A stretch of 51,804 bases of DNA from Planctomycetota bacterium. GTDB lineage: Bacteria > Planctomycetota > Phycisphaerae > Sedimentisphaerales > Anaerobacaceae. The stretch covers positions 1-51,804 of the forward strand of contig JACNGQ010000237.1 of assembly GCA_014384025.1 (NCBI GenBank), in the 5' to 3' direction. Positions within the stretch are counted from its first letter, which is position 1. Every line of letters begins with the position of its first letter. The position numbers and the translations under genes are program-made. The notes beneath the pieces were generated by a model. The model ran no database searches. It was not told the origin of the DNA and worked only from the letters and a program-made list of their open reading frames with translations. Positions 26,970 to 38,152 of this stretch are shown here, one piece after another.

Positions 26970-28463
26970 TTGAGACTAACAAGAATCTTATATGCGATAG
27001 TCACAGTAATCGTGGCAAGCAGTTTATTAATAAGTGGTCTTGCCGAATGGCAGGATTCTGGCGCGGAAGAGGGTTGGCGCTACACCGGTTATGTGCAGCG
27101 GATACCGGTTGTGTCGGTATGCTATATTCTTGGGGCTGTGGGCGTGATTTATCTGGGTTGGTATCAGTTAAGACTGACCAGAGCAGTCATGTCCATAGCC
27201 ACGCTGCTCCAGGACGAAAAATCAGGTGGTACCTATGATGGTAAGAAATTCTTTCCTACGACACACAGGCTGACAAAAATAAACGAATTGTACCAGGCTC
27301 TTAGTAAACATTTTGCCTGCTGTACTTCTCGTATTACTGAGTATGAAAAGAAAATAAGGGATTTGCAGGTAAAGAATCAACTGTCAAAAAGACGGGGTGA
27401 AAACACCGAGGCAATAATATACAGCATTCGTGACGCTGTTATTGTTATTGATGAGTCTGACAGACTATTGATGGCAAATGAGGCGGCTGGCCGGCTCTTC
27501 AATTTTGATTATAACAGTTCACAGCTAAAACCTGTAAGCGAACTGATCGGGCCTGACCAGAGTGAATTTACGGATTTTCTAAGCCACAACAGACAAAGGA
27601 AGGGACAGGCAACAAGAAAAGAGATCGAAATTTCAAAAGAAGGACCGCCCAAAATTTTTGACTGCATTGTTTCATGTGTTTACGAACAGGACAGGCAGGT
27701 ATGCGGGGCTGTAGCGGTGCTGCATGATATTACACGAGAAAAGCAAATTCAGCAGATGAAAAATGATTTCGTAAGTCATGTCTCACATGAACTCAAGACT
27801 CCTCTTGCTTCCATCACAGCCTTTACGGAAATGCTTGCTGATGGTGAAGCTAATGATGAAAAGACGCGAAAAGAATTTTATTCCGTAATTCAAAGTCAGG
27901 CCCAAAGATTGAATCGATTGATTGAAGATATTCTGAATTGTTCACGAATAGAATCCGGTCTAATAAAAGTAAATAAGGAGACGGCCAGCTTGACGATGCT
28001 CATAGAAGAACAGTTGAAAATGATAAAAGGTTATGCTGAAGAAAAGAAAGTAGAGGTCATTGGGCAAAAGCCCATTATTTACGACCAGGTGGACGTTGAC
28101 AAGGATATGATTCAAGAGGTTATTGTTAATCTGCTAAGTAATGCCGTGAAATATACGCCATCTGGGGGTTCAGTGAAGATTGAAACCGAAGTTGACGAAA
28201 ATGCGGCTCTGGTTCGGGTCAGGGTCACTGATACAGGAGTTGGTATCCCCGAGGATGACATAGAATATGTTTTTGATAAATTTTACAGAGTTGGTGCAAA
28301 TAACAAGCAGGCAGAAGGTACAGGTCTGGGACTTAACCTTGTGAAGCAAATAATTGAGAAGGTTCACAACGGCCGAGTATTCGTTATGAGCAAGGTCGGT
28401 GTTGGGAGCACTTTTGGCTTTGAATTACCTCTGACGACAAGGCAGGCAGTCAGAGCCGTATAA
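26970..28463 (+). CDS. Membrane sensor histidine kinase (PAS, HisKA, HATPase)
   Basis: Two transmembrane helices (about 5-22 and 45-63) are followed by a coiled-coil linker and a PAS domain (about 145-260, RDAVIVIDESDRLLMANEAAGRLF). Next is HisKA with the phosphorylation site H273 in VSHVSHELKTPLAS, and a complete HATPase domain (NLLSNAVKYTP N-box, VTDTGVGIPEDD, EGTGLGLNLV). The start is a TTG at 26970, supported by GGAG nine bases upstream; no in-frame ATG lies near the first helix. A six-pair hairpin AGCGTC/GACGCT (28485-28501) separates it from the receiver gene next door, its likely partner. Confidence 0.9.
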   Translation: MRLTRILYAIVTVIVASSLLISGLAEWQDSGAEEGWRYTGYVQRIPVVSVCYILGAVGVIYLGWYQLRLTRAVMSIATLLQDEKSGGTYDGKKFFPTTHRLTKINELYQALSKHFACCTSRITEYEKKIRDLQVKNQLSKRRGENTEAIIYSIRDAVIVIDESDRLLMANEAAGRLFNFDYNSSQLKPVSELIGPDQSEFTDFLSHNRQRKGQATRKEIEISKEGPPKIFDCIVSCVYEQDRQVCGAVAVLHDITREKQIQQMKNDFVSHVSHELKTPLASITAFTEMLADGEANDEKTRKEFYSVIQSQAQRLNRLIEDILNCSRIESGLIKVNKETASLTMLIEEQLKMIKGYAEEKKVEVIGQKPIIYDQVDVDKDMIQEVIVNLLSNAVKYTPSGGSVKIETEVDENAALVRVRVTDTGVGIPEDDIEYVFDKFYRVGANNKQAEGTGLGLNLVKQIIEKVHNGRVFVMSKVGVGSTFGFELPLTTRQAVRAV

Positions 28464-28537
28464 TAAGGTGTAAACAAAAAATTAAGCGTCCATTCGACGC
28501 TGCAAGCTATGAATTAATCTTTTGAGGAGGCAAGATC

Positions 28538-28930
28538 ATGACAGGCAAGAGAGTTTTAGTCGTGGATGATGAAATACACATCGTTCATGTGGTAGCGATA
28601 AAACTTCGTAACAATGGTTATGAGGTCATATCAGCTGATAATGGTGCCGAGGCCTTTGAGCTGGCTTGCGAAGAGAAACCGGACATTATTGTCACGGATT
28701 ATCAAATGCCGGTTATGTCAGGGCTGGAACTTGTGGAGAAGCTTCGGCAAGGTGATGATACCAAGGATATACCCGTAATTATGTTAACTGCCAGAAGCTT
28801 TGCTATCACGAAAGAGCAGCAGGAAGATTTACGAATATCAAGTTGTTTGAGCAAGCCATTCAGTCCAAAGGAGTTGTTGGGAAATATCGAAGATGTTTTG
28901 TACCAGAAGCAAGTAATGGTAAGCAATTGA
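28538..28930 (+). CDS. Single-domain response regulator (CheY-like)
   Basis: This is a stand-alone receiver domain of 130 residues. Acidic pair D10-D11, phosphoacceptor D54 (IIVTDYQMPVMSG), switch Thr in MLTAR and Lys in LSKPF are all present. There is no output domain, so it should act by protein contact. A very strong GAGGAGG site precedes the ATG. It follows the histidine kinase by 74 bases and precedes the HD-GYP protein by 52, so it probably relays the kinase signal to that enzyme or to the secretion ATPase. Confidence 0.92.
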   Translation: MTGKRVLVVDDEIHIVHVVAIKLRNNGYEVISADNGAEAFELACEEKPDIIVTDYQMPVMSGLELVEKLRQGDDTKDIPVIMLTARSFAITKEQQEDLRISSCLSKPFSPKELLGNIEDVLYQKQVMVSN

Positions 28931-28982
28931 CGGTTTACGAAAAGCATTAAAATAATTGACATGAAATAATCGATAGGGAGCT

Positions 28983-30695
28983 ATGCTGGATACGGTAAGG
29001 AAAACCTTAAGTTTGTCACAACGACGCCAGTTTGAGAGCTTCGGGGCTAAGATAAATAAGTTCGGCTTTAATTTTGCAGTTTGCAATAACGCCGATGAAG
29101 TTGTCTTATTGTGTGAAGGCGGTAAATATAAAAGTAACCCTGAACAATTAAGCAAACTAAGTCGGCAGGCTTTATGCCGACTCAGCGAAAAAAGTGGTTC
29201 TGATGAGACCGACATGCCGGTTTGGAGATTTGGTGATACGAATATTGTTTTGGCTGTTGTTCTGAAATCTGCTCGCCTCAGTAACAAAGACGGAGAAGTT
29301 TCAGGAACAGCTTTGATTGACCTGGGTGATAAATCTCTATGTCCAGCTTCTGTCCCGCCAAACGATACAAACTGTGTAAATCCGGTTCAGATGGACAGCA
29401 ACTATTTAGCGGAAATGCTTGAGCTTTTAGTAGAGAAATTTCAAGCTGAGACAAAAGCAGAAAAACAGATTGAAATGGTCGGTACAGAGCTGTCGCAGAC
29501 ATATGAGGAGCTGGTATTGCTTCACAAGCTCAGTACAAATATGAAGGTTACCGAATCGGATGCCAACTTTCTACAGATGGCTTGTGACAGCTTAACTGAA
29601 ATTGTTTGTGTTGAAGGCATTGCAATATTGCTGGAAAAGACCATCGATGACAAGCAACAGTTGGTTGTGGCAGCCGGCTCAGGTCTTATAGATATTGATG
29701 AACAAACGGCGGCTATTTTACATAGTGGATTGATGGATGAAATAAACAGCGGGAAAGAAGCGCTTCTGGACAGCGAGGTCGATTCCGCATTTAAATATGA
29801 ATGGCCTGACAATATAAATAATATTATTGCAGTACCTTTATGCGGTAAGGAGAAAACAGAATCCGGCATTACAGGCAAAAACGAGAATAGTAACTGCATG
29901 ATGGGGTTGATGGTTGCGATAAACAGAATAGGAAAACAGGATTTTGACAGCACCGATATAAAATTATTTAATTCGGTGGCTGGAGGATGTGCCGTTTTTA
30001 TCGAGAACGGCGAACTCTTTAAAGACCTCAAAGAATTATTCATTGGCTCACTGAAAGCACTGACAAGTAGTATTGATGCAAAAGACAAGTACACACACGG
30101 TCATTCTGAAAGAGTTGCTTTTATTTCACGATGGATTGCGGAGAAGCTATCGGAGCGGGAGCAATTGGATGAAGAGCAAATACACATGGTTTATTTGGCT
30201 GGATTGCTGCACGATATAGGAAAGATAGGTATAGAAGAAGTGGTATTGCGAAAGAAAGGTAAGCTGACTGAGCAGGAATTCAACCGTATTAAGCAACATC
30301 CGTCGATAGGTGCGGGTATTTTACATGAAATAAAACAAATGCGTGATATTATCCCGGGTGTATTATCTCATCACGAGCGAGTTGACGGCAGGGGATATCC
30401 GGATGGCTTGGTTGGTGAGCAGATACCGCTGACGGGTAGAATTGTCGGATTGGCGGACAGTTTCGATGCAATGACATCAAAGCGAACTTATCGTGATGCA
30501 ATGACTGTAGAGCATGCACTTGAGGAAATAGGAAAAGGATTGGGAACACAATTTGATGAAAAACTAGGCAGGATATTTCTCGACAGTGATGTCGGGCTGC
30601 TCTGGGACATTATTCAGAATGGTTTTAACAATATTTACCAAAACGGCGACTCTGTGGAATATGGTGCCGCGGCTGTGGGAACGCTAATCGGATGA
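28983..30695 (+). CDS. HD-GYP c-di-GMP phosphodiesterase with GAF-like sensor
   Basis: Residues 1-130 form an unrecognised domain. A helical linker, a GAF-like domain (about 180-345) and a complete HD-GYP domain (about 360-545) follow. The HD-GYP motifs are intact: HGHSERVAF, LAGLLHDIGK with H410-D411, KQHPSIGAGIL, and H463-HERVDGRGYP. It should hydrolyse cyclic di-GMP in the cytoplasm. It lacks a receiver domain of its own, which fits a separate receiver just upstream. Its stop codon overlaps the STAS gene start (ATGA), so the two are coupled. Its place inside the secretion locus suggests local control of c-di-GMP near the pilus ATPase. Confidence 0.93.
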   Translation: MLDTVRKTLSLSQRRQFESFGAKINKFGFNFAVCNNADEVVLLCEGGKYKSNPEQLSKLSRQALCRLSEKSGSDETDMPVWRFGDTNIVLAVVLKSARLSNKDGEVSGTALIDLGDKSLCPASVPPNDTNCVNPVQMDSNYLAEMLELLVEKFQAETKAEKQIEMVGTELSQTYEELVLLHKLSTNMKVTESDANFLQMACDSLTEIVCVEGIAILLEKTIDDKQQLVVAAGSGLIDIDEQTAAILHSGLMDEINSGKEALLDSEVDSAFKYEWPDNINNIIAVPLCGKEKTESGITGKNENSNCMMGLMVAINRIGKQDFDSTDIKLFNSVAGGCAVFIENGELFKDLKELFIGSLKALTSSIDAKDKYTHGHSERVAFISRWIAEKLSEREQLDEEQIHMVYLAGLLHDIGKIGIEEVVLRKKGKLTEQEFNRIKQHPSIGAGILHEIKQMRDIIPGVLSHHERVDGRGYPDGLVGEQIPLTGRIVGLADSFDAMTSKRTYRDAMTVEHALEEIGKGLGTQFDEKLGRIFLDSDVGLLWDIIQNGFNNIYQNGDSVEYGAAAVGTLIG

Positions 30696-31027
30696 AAATT
30701 AAAATACAAGATTATAACGAGGTAACGGTTGTTGAGCTGCAGGGTGAACTGGATGGCGATGATGTCGAGTTCTTCCAAAGTACTATTACTGATATAATCT
30801 CAAGATGCAAAGTCGGTGTGGTGCTGGATATGAGCGGCTTGGGATTTGTTGATGGTGAAGGATTGGAACAGTTGTTGTGGGCGAGAGACTATTGTAGTCA
30901 GAACAAATGTGAGCTTCGATTAGCAGGACTTGATGAAAATTGCATGAGAATTCTTGAAATTACTCGGCTCGAAAAAGAATTTAACCACTATGTGGAACTT
31001 GCGGAGGCGGTAAAGAGTTTTGTGTAG
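30692..31027 (+). CDS. STAS-domain protein (anti-sigma-factor-antagonist fold) without phospho-Ser
   Basis: This single STAS domain has 111 residues. The usual loop is D-S-S-G, with the first Ser phosphorylated by an anti-sigma kinase. Here it is D54-G55-E56-G57 (GFVDGEGLEQLL), so the phosphorylated Ser is Gly. It therefore cannot be switched in the classic SpoIIAA manner. No anti-sigma kinase or PP2C phosphatase is near. It is translationally coupled to the HD-GYP gene and probably serves as a protein-interaction module for it or for the kinase. Confidence 0.88.
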   Translation: MKIKIQDYNEVTVVELQGELDGDDVEFFQSTITDIISRCKVGVVLDMSGLGFVDGEGLEQLLWARDYCSQNKCELRLAGLDENCMRILEITRLEKEFNHYVELAEAVKSFV

Positions 31028-34117: not shown

Positions 34118-34402
34118 AGCCAAAAACACAGAGTTTATAACAATTGATTCAGTATAAGCTCTTTTTATTCACCTTGTAATTGATGATGCATGCCTCATAA
34201 CACCTTGTCAATACTGCGCTTAACGTCGCGATATTGCTTAGGGGACATATCTGAGTTAGTTAATATCTTTTAGATATATTTCCCTAAAGGTGCAACTGAT
34301 TTCTTCCGATAAAGTGAAAACGTTGGGGTGGTTTATGATGTGTCATTATGCGGTGTTATAACAAATGCAAGCCTTTTTTTAAGTCTAAGGATATTGGTAA
34401 AT
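34118..34402 (+). promoter_or_regulatory. Spacer between secretion locus and chemosensory module
   Basis: The stretch holds the terminator of the secretion locus (34130-34167) and then about 230 bases that must carry the promoter of the receiver/CheA module. I could not identify confident boxes. Confidence 0.35.
34130..34167 (+). terminator. Intrinsic terminator of the secretion/pilus locus
   Basis: AGAGTTTATA (34130-34139) pairs with TATAAGCTCT (34153-34162), ten pairs with one T-G, around a 13-base loop, followed by TTTTATT. It lies 13 bases after the gspF stop codon. Confidence 0.8.
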
Positions 34403-34840
34403 ATGAATGAGCAAATAAACCAAAAGATTAAGTCTTTTTCAGATGAAAAAAACAAATCTGTTTCAGATCTGAATCTCAAAGCATTGGTTGTTGAGGATTT
34501 CGAGACAATGCGAAACATTATCGCTAAGGTCCTCGACAGTCTTAATATCAAGATAACCGAAGCTGTCAATGGTATCGAGGCACTTAAAGTTCTTGATGCT
34601 GAACCGGTGGATATAGTTTTGACCGATCTGGTCATGCCGGAGATGGACGGCTTTGAGTTGTGTGAAGAAATTCGTCGCAGACCGAATATCCGCCATTTAC
34701 CGGTCATTGTCATTTCCACACACCGTGATGCCAAATATGTTGTACAGGCGCTGCGTTGTGGAGCTGATGACTATTTAACGAAACCATTTACCGCTGCTTT
34801 TGCTGAGCGAATTATTGAAAGGGTTTTGAGCAATGTCTGA
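34403..34840 (+). CDS. CheY-like response regulator of the chemosensory module
   Basis: This receiver domain comes after a polar N-terminal extension of about 25 residues. Phosphorylation residues are canonical: E-D pair in VVEDFE, phosphoacceptor Asp in VLTDLVMPEMDG, switch Ser in VIVIST, Lys in LTKPF. I start it at the ATG at 34403 (145 residues), which has AAGGAT upstream, rather than at an in-frame GTG at 34328, which has no ribosome site and adds a hydrophobic stretch unlike the family. It overlaps the CheA-like gene by eight bases, so it is the likely direct phosphate acceptor of that kinase. Confidence 0.9.
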   Translation: MNEQINQKIKSFSDEKNKSVSDLNLKALVVEDFETMRNIIAKVLDSLNIKITEAVNGIEALKVLDAEPVDIVLTDLVMPEMDGFELCEEIRRRPNIRHLPVIVISTHRDAKYVVQALRCGADDYLTKPFTAAFAERIIERVLSNV

Positions 34841-36998
34841 TACGAATACTGCTGCAATAGAACAGAGACCCAAAAGTTCCTCAGGCCCCGCCACATCAAA
34901 TCAGGAGAGTATGATAGTACGTTTGAGCAGCCTGGACAATATGCTGGAACTGGCAGGTGAAGTTATTATTGTCAGCTCGAATCTCAATGCGATGAGCCGC
35001 GAAATACAGGAAGGGGCAAAGGTTTCACGTGTCCTGTCGGACAATGTCAAGGACCTTGCTATCACTTCTTCACGGATTTCATCGGATTTACATAATCTGG
35101 TTACTGATGTCCGCACAGTTGGGATGGGTGACTTATTCGCGCGTTTCCGACGGATTGCACGCGATACCTCAAGGCGTTTGGGTAAAGTGATTCGCTTTGA
35201 ATTGGAAGGTGTGGATATATGCATTGATAAAAGAACTTCGGAAAAGATATATGACCCAATCGCCCATCAGATACGCAACGCAATGGCGCACGGTATCGAA
35301 GACAAAGAAATCCGTGTTAAGTTGGGAAAAGATCCTGTCGGGACTGTTACGGTTAGAGTCTGCAACACGGAAAATAACACAATTATTGACGTAATAGATG
35401 ATGGTGGTGGTATCGATAAAGAAGCTGTACGACGTAAAGTATTGAAGATGGAGCTAACTGATGACAAAACGCTTGACGGTCTTTCTGACGAAGCTCTATT
35501 TGAATATTTGTATATTCCAGGTTTTTCAACCGCTGAACAGACCTCAGCTACTTCAGGACGAGGGGTGGGATTAGATGTTGTGCGCGACGTTATGAATCAA
35601 ATTAATGGCGAAACTCGCATCAAAAGCGAAGAAGGTAAGGGAACAACATTTTCTTTCATTCTGCCCAAGATAACAGCGGTAAATATCTCTGATGCTTTAC
35701 TTGTTCGGGCTGAAAAAATGACGTTTGCCTTTCCTATATCGTCTGTTGTCGCATCGCAGGCCATCTCCGTTAATGAGGTGACTACTATCAGGGGGACAAG
35801 CCGTACAATTAAATATCTTGGCAGGATTTTGCCTTTATTTGATTTGCTGGAGATTTTTGGTGAGTCGCCGGTTAAAATTCAGGACAACCAGATGCGGGCC
35901 ATTATAGTTGAGTATAAAAACAAACGTGCAGCTTTTGTTATTTCGGATTTCATGAATCCCCAGAAAATTGTAATCTCAGAATTTGACTGCGAGATAAAGG
36001 TTCCCGGCCTTATTGGAACCGCCATACTCACCGGCAGACAGATGGGTTTGGTAATTGACCTGCCGGGATTATTTGAGCAAACATTTGGCAATGGTAAGGA
36101 AATGGATATTAACAAATCCATCCGCATTGATACATGCGTAAAAAACAACTTGATGATGGATAAAGAAAATACGCCGCAAACAGTTTCAGCCAGCACAGAA
36201 ACTATGATACCGGCTGCTACCGAGGCGGATGAATCTGTTTACGAGGAACTGGATATCGATCGACCTGATTCACAATTCCTCAAGGAAGTGGAAGTAATGC
36301 TTGCTCGACTCAACCAGGAGCTATTTACGTTAGAGGAAAAACATGATACTGAAACCGCTGATGCTATCTTTCGTCTTGTACATTCGATAAAGGGCAATTT
36401 AACAATGTGCGGTGCAGAGGAACCAGCTTCCATCACTCACCAGGTTGAAACGATTCTGGAACGTGCAAGACGTGGGGCACTGGAACTGAATGATGAAGTT
36501 TTTGATGTTTTGTTCGATGGCTCAGCATATCTTGAACAAGTCGTCCAGTCACTCCTAACAAACCAGAAGCCTCCTGTACCGTCCGATAAGCTCCTTGCGG
36601 GGATGGAAAATTTCCGTCAGGAGGAAAAGAAAACTGACCAGGGTGCGACTGTAGCTGCTCTCGATAATGCTCAGGCAGTTTTGGATCCGACAGGCGAATT
36701 TTATCTTTCCTCACGTCGTCGGGATGGAGCGGTTTTGTATCGGTGTCATATTGAATTTAATCCCGGCGACCAGCCGCATTTTCTGGTTGCCTATCTTATT
36801 CTTCGCCGTCTTCAGCGGGTAGCTGACGTTCTTGGTAGTTTCCCCGCAATGACCGATATCGAAGCCGGCTTATGCAAGGGAGGTATTGTAGTACTTTTGG
36901 CTCCACGTGACCCAAAGCCTGATTTGCTCGATACCCTCGATAAAAACTTGAAAAGGTATTACGGAGTGGAGCGTTTTGAGGCTGCCACTTATGCATAA
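34833..36998 (+). CDS. CheA-type histidine kinase with permuted domain order
   Basis: The protein has 721 residues. Ordinary CheA runs P1 (HPt), P2, P3, P4, P5. Here the order is P3 dimerisation helices (about 25-95, LDNMLELAGEVIIV), P4 ATPase (about 100-285; HQIRNAMAHGIE, DDGGGID, SGRGVGLDVV), P5 CheW-like (about 286-425), a linker of about 50, then HPt with the phosphorylated His H517 in VHSIKGNLTMCG (about 470-580). It ends in an alpha/beta segment (about 620-715) resembling the region that follows HPt in other CheA proteins. In the N-box, the usual D of NAxDHG is Ala. No receptor, CheW, CheR or CheB gene is near, so the input is unknown. Confidence 0.88.
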   Translation: MSDTNTAAIEQRPKSSSGPATSNQESMIVRLSSLDNMLELAGEVIIVSSNLNAMSREIQEGAKVSRVLSDNVKDLAITSSRISSDLHNLVTDVRTVGMGDLFARFRRIARDTSRRLGKVIRFELEGVDICIDKRTSEKIYDPIAHQIRNAMAHGIEDKEIRVKLGKDPVGTVTVRVCNTENNTIIDVIDDGGGIDKEAVRRKVLKMELTDDKTLDGLSDEALFEYLYIPGFSTAEQTSATSGRGVGLDVVRDVMNQINGETRIKSEEGKGTTFSFILPKITAVNISDALLVRAEKMTFAFPISSVVASQAISVNEVTTIRGTSRTIKYLGRILPLFDLLEIFGESPVKIQDNQMRAIIVEYKNKRAAFVISDFMNPQKIVISEFDCEIKVPGLIGTAILTGRQMGLVIDLPGLFEQTFGNGKEMDINKSIRIDTCVKNNLMMDKENTPQTVSASTETMIPAATEADESVYEELDIDRPDSQFLKEVEVMLARLNQELFTLEEKHDTETADAIFRLVHSIKGNLTMCGAEEPASITHQVETILERARRGALELNDEVFDVLFDGSAYLEQVVQSLLTNQKPPVPSDKLLAGMENFRQEEKKTDQGATVAALDNAQAVLDPTGEFYLSSRRRDGAVLYRCHIEFNPGDQPHFLVAYLILRRLQRVADVLGSFPAMTDIEAGLCKGGIVVLLAPRDPKPDLLDTLDKNLKRYYGVERFEAATYA

Positions 36999-37016
36999 TA
37001 CTGCGGGAGATATATT

Positions 37017-37940
37017 ATGGTAAAAAAAGCATTGTTCTTAAGAGACGAAGACAATACCTGCATATTAGAGCCTTTGATAAAACGCTGTCGTCAGGAACAA
37101 TTTGAGGTTGAAGAATGTAATCAACCTCCAGACCATGAGACGCTAAAGAATTTGTTGCCATCGACGCCGGCAGTTCTGTTCGTACCGGCGATTGAAGAGG
37201 ATTGTTGGGGTGTCAAGCTGGCTCAGGATGCTCTGAACGAGAAGATGCCTCATGTTATTGTGCTTTATGCACCTTCTATGCCTTCCAGAGAATTCCTTTG
37301 CCTTGCCTTTAGAGAAGGTGTTGACGATATAATTTCTCTTGATGCCGACATAGAAACACTCAGCTCCAAACTTAAACGTGCTGACCATATACTGCAGGCA
37401 AGATTAGATTCGATGGATGCCGGAGGGCAATGGCAGCGGGAAATAAAATCGCTCCATCTTCGTTGTGAACAATTGGAATGCAAAAATGCTAAGTGGGAAG
37501 AAAGGTTGCTTGCCTTGTCTTCAACAGCAACAAGAATGGCTACAGGCCAACTGCGACTTGCAGAAAGTGCTCCTTCTGTACTTATTGTGGCTTCCAGCAA
37601 CTCCCAGGCTTCCAGTGCAGCCGAACTGTGTCGTCGTCTTGGTTTCAAAACACATCTGGCACATACAGGCAAGGATGGTTTGGAACAAATTAGCAAGGAT
37701 CCGCCACGGATCATCCTCGCTGATGGCACTTTGCCGGATATGGACGCAACGGCTTTTGCTCCGGCTGCCCGCAAGGCACTTGGCAATAAACCAGTAGTTA
37801 TAGTTGCATGGTCGAGCAGCCCTGAATCAGAAGACACTCTACTGGCTCCAGATATCGGTATAGACGATTTTGTTCTCAAATCGACTACCAGCGAAGGTAC
37901 AGGATTTTTAGCTGCTGCACTGCTCGGTGGGCTTCGTTGA
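37017..37940 (+). CDS. Dual receiver-like protein (pseudo-REC, coiled coil, REC)
   Basis: The protein has 307 residues. Residues 1-120 look like a receiver fold that keeps RDEDN at the N-terminus but has no Asp at the acceptor site (AVLFVPAIEED). A helical linker follows (about 125-175), then a second receiver-like domain (about 185-305). That one has lost the N-terminal acidic pair (IVASSNSQ) but keeps a possible acceptor D236 in ILADGTLPDMD, Ser in VAWSS and Lys in FVLKS. GGGAG precedes the ATG. It lies 18 bases after the permuted CheA gene and probably binds that kinase or its partner. No output domain is seen. Confidence 0.75.
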   Translation: MVKKALFLRDEDNTCILEPLIKRCRQEQFEVEECNQPPDHETLKNLLPSTPAVLFVPAIEEDCWGVKLAQDALNEKMPHVIVLYAPSMPSREFLCLAFREGVDDIISLDADIETLSSKLKRADHILQARLDSMDAGGQWQREIKSLHLRCEQLECKNAKWEERLLALSSTATRMATGQLRLAESAPSVLIVASSNSQASSAAELCRRLGFKTHLAHTGKDGLEQISKDPPRIILADGTLPDMDATAFAPAARKALGNKPVVIVAWSSSPESEDTLLAPDIGIDDFVLKSTTSEGTGFLAAALLGGLR

Positions 37941-38152
37941 AAATCAATTCATATATCCGATGAAACACATTGAGTGTAACCAAAAACTGCTTGTTATATA
38001 ACACCGTCCCATCAAAAACGGCTCGGATATTACTGCGACGTTCGTAGAAATCATTTAGATATGGAAAAATCGGCAAATGCACGTTAAAATATCTAACAAA
38101 TCGACAGTAGGTATTTTATATAATAAGCTAAATTCTAAGTTGAGTTTGAGCG
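37941..38152 (+). promoter_or_regulatory. Promoter region of the DUF3616 gene
   Basis: A TATAAT box lies at 38119-38124, 29 bases before the ATG. No matching -35 was found at 16-18 bases, so it would need an activator or another sigma factor. Nothing else is seen here. Confidence 0.3.

Follow-up and report, generated by a model that had tools for sequence, protein, structure and literature searches.

The locus examined here raises the question of whether a CheA whose domains stand in a rearranged order is a genuine kinase, and what it might do together with the two receiver genes that flank it. In the usual picture of CheA, P1 and P2 come ahead of the P3-P4-P5 core. In the stretch of planctomycete DNA analyzed (51,804 nucleotides; hereafter, the window), the initial annotation had instead read the core first, followed by an HPt domain with the phospho-acceptor H517 in an HSIKGN motif. 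We found that Pfam confirmed this order, with each of the five domains scoring above its curated cut-off (Table 1). The HPt was recovered by domain search in the C-terminal part, and the alpha/beta segment noticed behind it proved to be the P2 domain. By domain content, the protein is a CheA histidine kinase that carries the HPt histidine within the same chain; it has one HPt and no receiver domain in the Pfam analysis. Standard CheA models miss it, as both NCBIfam equivalogs stay far below their cut-offs (CheA_Halo, 294 bits versus 950; PRK10547, 250 bits versus 793).

Table 1. Features of the three-gene cassette and its site (positions in the window).
Feature	Position	Strand	Size or residues	Evidence
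cheY-like single-domain response regulator	34403..34840	+	145 aa	PF00072, E 2.8e-30
Circularly permuted CheA, order P3-P4-P5-P1-P2	34833..36998	+	721 aa	Pfam, hhalign, PDB profile matches
P3 dimerisation domain, H-kinase_dim	34917..35105	+	residues 29-91	PF02895
P4 kinase domain, HATPase_c	35259..35669	+	residues 143-279	PF02518
P5 CheW-like domain	35694..36080	+	residues 288-416	PF01584
P1 HPt domain	36273..36539	+	residues 481-569; H517 at 36381-36383	PF01627
P2 CheY-docking domain	36738..36938	+	residues 636-702	PF07194
REC - long helix - REC protein	37017..37940	+	307 aa	AlphaFold2, Foldseek
Extent of the cassette versus the empty site of same-genus G068	34187..38026	.		blastn breakpoints 34186, 38027

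Scanning a single genome for each species gave 52 loci, and the C-terminal domains of the query were matched in 50 of them. One locus (L107) is cut at residue 381 by a contig end, the frames of three more (L097, L108, and L110) are broken, and L111, labeled Gemmatimonadetes, was fetched by pattern but left out as canonical because only P3-P5 are covered by its match, which lies at the C terminus of a 752-aa frame. The full-length set comprises 47 proteins, the window's and 46 relatives. According to Pfam, all 47 carry the five domains in the permuted order and align end to end, P3 lies directly ahead of the kinase domain in every one of them, and the canonical P1-P2-P3-P4-P5 order is absent throughout. 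HATPase_c and CheW always share a single chain, and a split of HPt and ATPase between two proteins was found in none of the 47. The alignment further showed that the residues of the N, G1, F, and G2 boxes of P4 are invariant, as are H517, H536, and E539, while K520 is kept in 46 proteins. The f43 CheAs have GRGVGMDVV in the G2 box, with GMD and not GLD, and every kinase box in them is intact.

Many of the relatives come from MAGs, which could favor the idea that an assembly or binning artefact joined two genes. However, more than 40 separate assemblies align end to end, among them the complete genome of Deltaproteobacteria bacterium Smac51 (CP026657, L069), making such an artefact extremely improbable; with five domains in 47 of 47 full-length proteins and one of these from a complete genome, we ruled out an assembly fusion. 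The CheA of the genome G053 might be taken as truncated after P5, but this reading was rejected, as the contig stops where the HPt begins; the remainder of the gene was not found in the rest of the G053 assembly.

To compare the displaced block with that of ordinary CheAs, we used a C-terminal profile built from the 47 aligned permuted proteins. The hhalign alignment runs over 225 columns without rearrangement and places the C-terminal ~225 residues colinear with residues ~17-250 of ordinary CheA (99.6%, E 3e-24), a block that spans P1, the linker, and P2. Profile matches to the PDB agree with this assignment: CheA P3-P4-P5 structures matched at 26-415, the P1 structures 2ld6, 1tqg, and 8c5v within 482-591, and the P2 structure 1u0s_A at 639-707, the last with an E value of 0.0037 that is weak alone. 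In the AlphaFold model, the folds of P1 and P2 are confident and the linker at 420-476 is disordered; the core matches CheA structures by fold as well as by sequence, and the pTM of 0.42 means that the mutual placement of the domains is not fixed. Because the C-terminal block is colinear with canonical P1-P2, the window's CheA is, as judged from these alignments, a circular permutation in form. How this form arose is a separate matter. Fusion could have brought in the P1-P2 part from the front of a different CheA, and any CheA N terminus would yield an identical block. We consider this rather unlikely compared with a permutation of one gene, since the native order of P1 and P2 is retained, as duplication and deletion of a single gene would give, and since the permuted CheAs form a single clade, even though neither the clade nor the order of the two domains excludes fusion.

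This clade was seen when a tree was built from the P3-P4-P5 core (59 rows): a branch with 100/100 support splits 24 permuted from 35 canonical CheAs, several of the latter sharing genomes with permuted ones. In this tree, the permuted CheAs are one clade apart from ordinary CheAs, with a single inferred origin. The record labels of the relatives include Phycisphaerae, other Planctomycetota, Sumerlaeota, Myxococcales, Proteobacteria, and Eisenbacteria, with many entries labeled "Deltaproteobacteria" or Candidatus Adiutrix; as taxon labels of MAGs, they carry the usual binning risk. The window's CheA clusters with sequences labeled Sumerlaeota and Myxococcales (100/99), while the permuted CheAs of other Planctomycetota cluster with deltaproteobacterial ones and not with the window's (99/98). 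This separation from other Planctomycetota suggests that the cassette has been transferred between phyla, although finer placement calls for caution because long branches meet in the tree. A tblastn search of plasmids returned 376 records, all less than 60% identical to the query. The best of these were discarded as permuted candidates, being annotated as, or resembling, ordinary CheAs whose match falls into two distinct segments.

The permuted cheA does not travel alone. As had been noted from the letters of the window, a CheY-like gene overlaps its start: cheY begins with the ATG at 34403, and its stop ends at 34840, giving an overlap of 8 bp with the cheA start at 34833, which is also the overlap most often seen among relatives. 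In nearly all relatives with enough upstream sequence, cheY lies 5' of permuted cheA, and in most a third gene lies no more than a few hundred bases 3' of cheA. The module keeps its gene order (cheY, permuted cheA, REC-coil-REC), and the flanking receiver genes indeed travel with the kinase. The third gene was not found in two outlying relatives, L063 (with 7.9 kb of room) and L102 (1 kb of room). The CheY residues D76, S106, and K128 (numbered from 34400) are invariant in 47 family members, and these conserved residues would fit the phosphorelay from H517 to CheY that had been proposed.

The neighborhoods of the cassette contain further recurring genes. At L079 (6256-7128), L082, L098, L105, and other deltaproteobacterial loci, a probable lipoprotein of ~300 aa that contains TPRs and carries the motif RRELDALKMEVADL is encoded 5' of the cassette, and at many deltaproteobacterial loci, a protein of ~200 aa that has a single hydrophobic segment and matches no Pfam family is encoded 3' of it. 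Both neighbors are possibly extra parts of the system, or else plain synteny. In the other planctomycete family (L052, 446-1492; L054; L058; L110), cheY is preceded by the gene for a ~350-aa protein that has a hydrophobic segment at its N terminus and matches TPRs weakly.

The third protein had been described as two degenerate receivers. AlphaFold2 (mean pLDDT 87.9) models two receiver folds with a 64-residue helix (112-175) between them, and Foldseek identified the tandem receivers of PleD as the closest folds. The description holds for receiver 1, where the window's lineage has Pro57 in place of the Asp seen in 29 of 33 members of the family, and in part for receiver 2, where the same lineage has lost an acidic-pocket Asp (Ser193). 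However, receiver 2 keeps its acceptor Asp236 and Lys288, both present in 33 of 33. The REC-REC arrangement is shared with PleD-type proteins, whereas the GGDEF output is missing, the inter-receiver helix is long, and the acceptor Asp of receiver 1 is lost in the window's lineage.

In the window, the cassette is preceded by genes for PilM, a secretin, a sensor kinase, a receiver, HD and STAS proteins, PilB, and PilC, a placement from which pilus control had been proposed. A cassette controlling the adjoining type IV pilus/type II-like locus (Tfp-class, Chp-like) would fit its position directly after pilB-pilC both in the window and in the genome G071. Yet three genomes of the same genus (G067, G068, and G069) have the identical pilus locus, with PilC followed by DUF3616 or YebC and the cassette absent; neither the permuted P1-P2 block nor a full third gene was found anywhere in these genomes, and more distant members of the family likewise lack the cassette after PilC. 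Moreover, in the relatives inspected, the cassette adjoins ATP synthase, GroES, transporter, or other unrelated genes, and both the window's genome and G053 carry flagellin genes, which leaves a flagellar output possible. Of the Tfp-class traits, multiple HPts and a receiver in the kinase are absent, and the pilus association is not conserved. Thus, the position next to the pilus genes is weak functional evidence, and we regard control of this locus by the cassette as very unlikely. Inside the pilus locus, the window encodes a PAS sensor kinase, a CheY-like receiver, and HD-domain and STAS proteins at 26970-31027. Because HD, STAS, PilB, and PilC are retained in the same-genus genomes, the genes of this interval are likelier than the cassette to serve as local pilus regulators. 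The simplest reading of the empty sites is a gain of the cassette in the window's lineage, while loss in the other genomes is possible. We found no convincing terminal repeats at the cassette boundaries, and its GC content is about that of the flanks.

The receptor context was examined in the window and in 15 genomes. In agreement with the initial annotation, the window lacks the MCP and the stand-alone CheW that a complete che cluster would have; its sole CheW match is the permuted CheA's own P5, and neither CheR nor CheB was seen in those window proteins to which Pfam was applied. The claim of a self-contained relay is unproven, since 14 of the 15 genomes checked encode MCPs elsewhere, with 3-30 matches per genome apart from the window's genome and G053. 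In the window's own genome, a single MCP match and a single stand-alone CheW lie on another contig, which carries a second, canonical chemosensory system. In G053, neither an MCP nor a stand-alone CheW was found; the absence is only suggestive because this fragmented assembly also lacks the end of its permuted cheA. The same assembly, rated 96% complete, has flagellin genes and two CheA genes. Flagellin genes are also present in the window's genome, and we did not take a sub-threshold FliM match there as a sign that flagella are lacking. FliM-like matches just below the curated cut-off (G000:C366:6309-6695 and G071:C326:9500-9895) are possibly divergent planctomycete FliM.

These data bear on whether the permuted kinase might work without receptors, with P5 uncoupled from MCP/CheW arrays and the REC-coil-REC or another protein as its regulator. 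Such a relay would match the lack of MCP, CheW, CheR, and CheB genes beside the module, which extends to the relatives inspected by reading frames, as well as the case of G053 and the permuted P5 domains, which are among the lowest-scoring CheW matches of their genomes. Against this, P5 is otherwise well conserved, G053 is the fragmented assembly just described, and orphan che genes can share receptor arrays. Because all but one of the 15 genomes encode MCPs away from the cassette, coupling of P5 to a receptor array is possible, and a receptor-free relay appears improbable on balance. Both receptor input and flagellar output are thus possible for the cassette. It is quite doubtful that the kinases form a distinct class in which a transferable cheY-permuted cheA-(REC-coil-REC) cassette would signal free of arrays, with the tandem-receiver protein as regulator.

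Compared with the canonical CheAs of E. coli, B. subtilis, and T. maritima, the permuted protein has the same five domains, catalytic residues, and P3-P4-P5 order, and P1 lies beside P2 in both. In contrast, P1-P2 are found here at the C and not the N terminus, and the linker leads from P5 and not to P3; the permuted core shares ~30% identity with local canonical CheAs. The text of a survey covering 13,673 CheAs (Berry, Andrianova, and Zhulin 2023, PMC10782961) describes P2-less, multi-HPt, dual-CheW, receiver-bearing, and bipartite forms. These variants likewise depart from the five-domain layout, but they do so by losses, duplications, fusions, and splits, and the C-terminal HPt-P2 order does not appear in the running text of the survey. 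As cited in that text, Wuichet and Zhulin (2010) found P3-P4-P5 always in one configuration, unlike Hpt and P2. The passages on Rhodobacter (Cereibacter) sphaeroides describe CheA4 as a P3-P4-P5 core without an N-terminal P1, implying that P1 need not sit at its usual tether place; in that split system (CheA3/CheA4), P1 belongs to a separate protein, while here one chain holds all domains in permuted order. In the literature library searched, nothing on point turned up for a permuted or C-terminal-HPt CheA, and the permuted CheA seems to be previously undescribed, although Wuichet and Zhulin (2010) could mention it.

Taken together, we estimate a probability of about 0.8 that the permuted P3-P4-P5-P1-P2 CheA is functional and that, with CheY and the tandem-receiver protein, it makes up a transferable three-gene phosphorelay cassette. 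Most likely, the cassette is a working CheA-CheY phosphorelay in which the mobile P1-P2 arm is anchored at P5 and not at P3. P3 would dimerize the kinase, and P4, by analogy with CheA biochemistry, would bind ATP and phosphorylate His517 of P1 within the dimer, P1 hanging from the C terminus of P5 by a flexible linker of ~60 residues. P2 would dock the adjoining CheY, and the phosphoryl group would probably pass from His517 to CheY Asp76. The REC-coil-REC protein may compete for or drain phosphoryl groups, or else assemble with the kinase, and input may arrive via P5 from a CheW/receptor array or another partner. In canonical CheA, according to PMC10782961, long linkers separate P1 and P2, and a liberated HPt still works; a tether at the P5 end is thus compatible with activity.

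The existence of a conserved permuted clade under several phylum labels implies that CheA can carry its substrate arm at the opposite end, behind the CheW domain. In an array, the P1-P2 arm of such a kinase would leave from the P5/CheW ring and not from the dimer bundle. With the permuted CheA, the way in which P1 reaches P4 and the effect of tether position on kinase control can be tested directly. Its cassette also looks like a CheA-CheY relay that is transferable in nature and has no receptor genes nearby.
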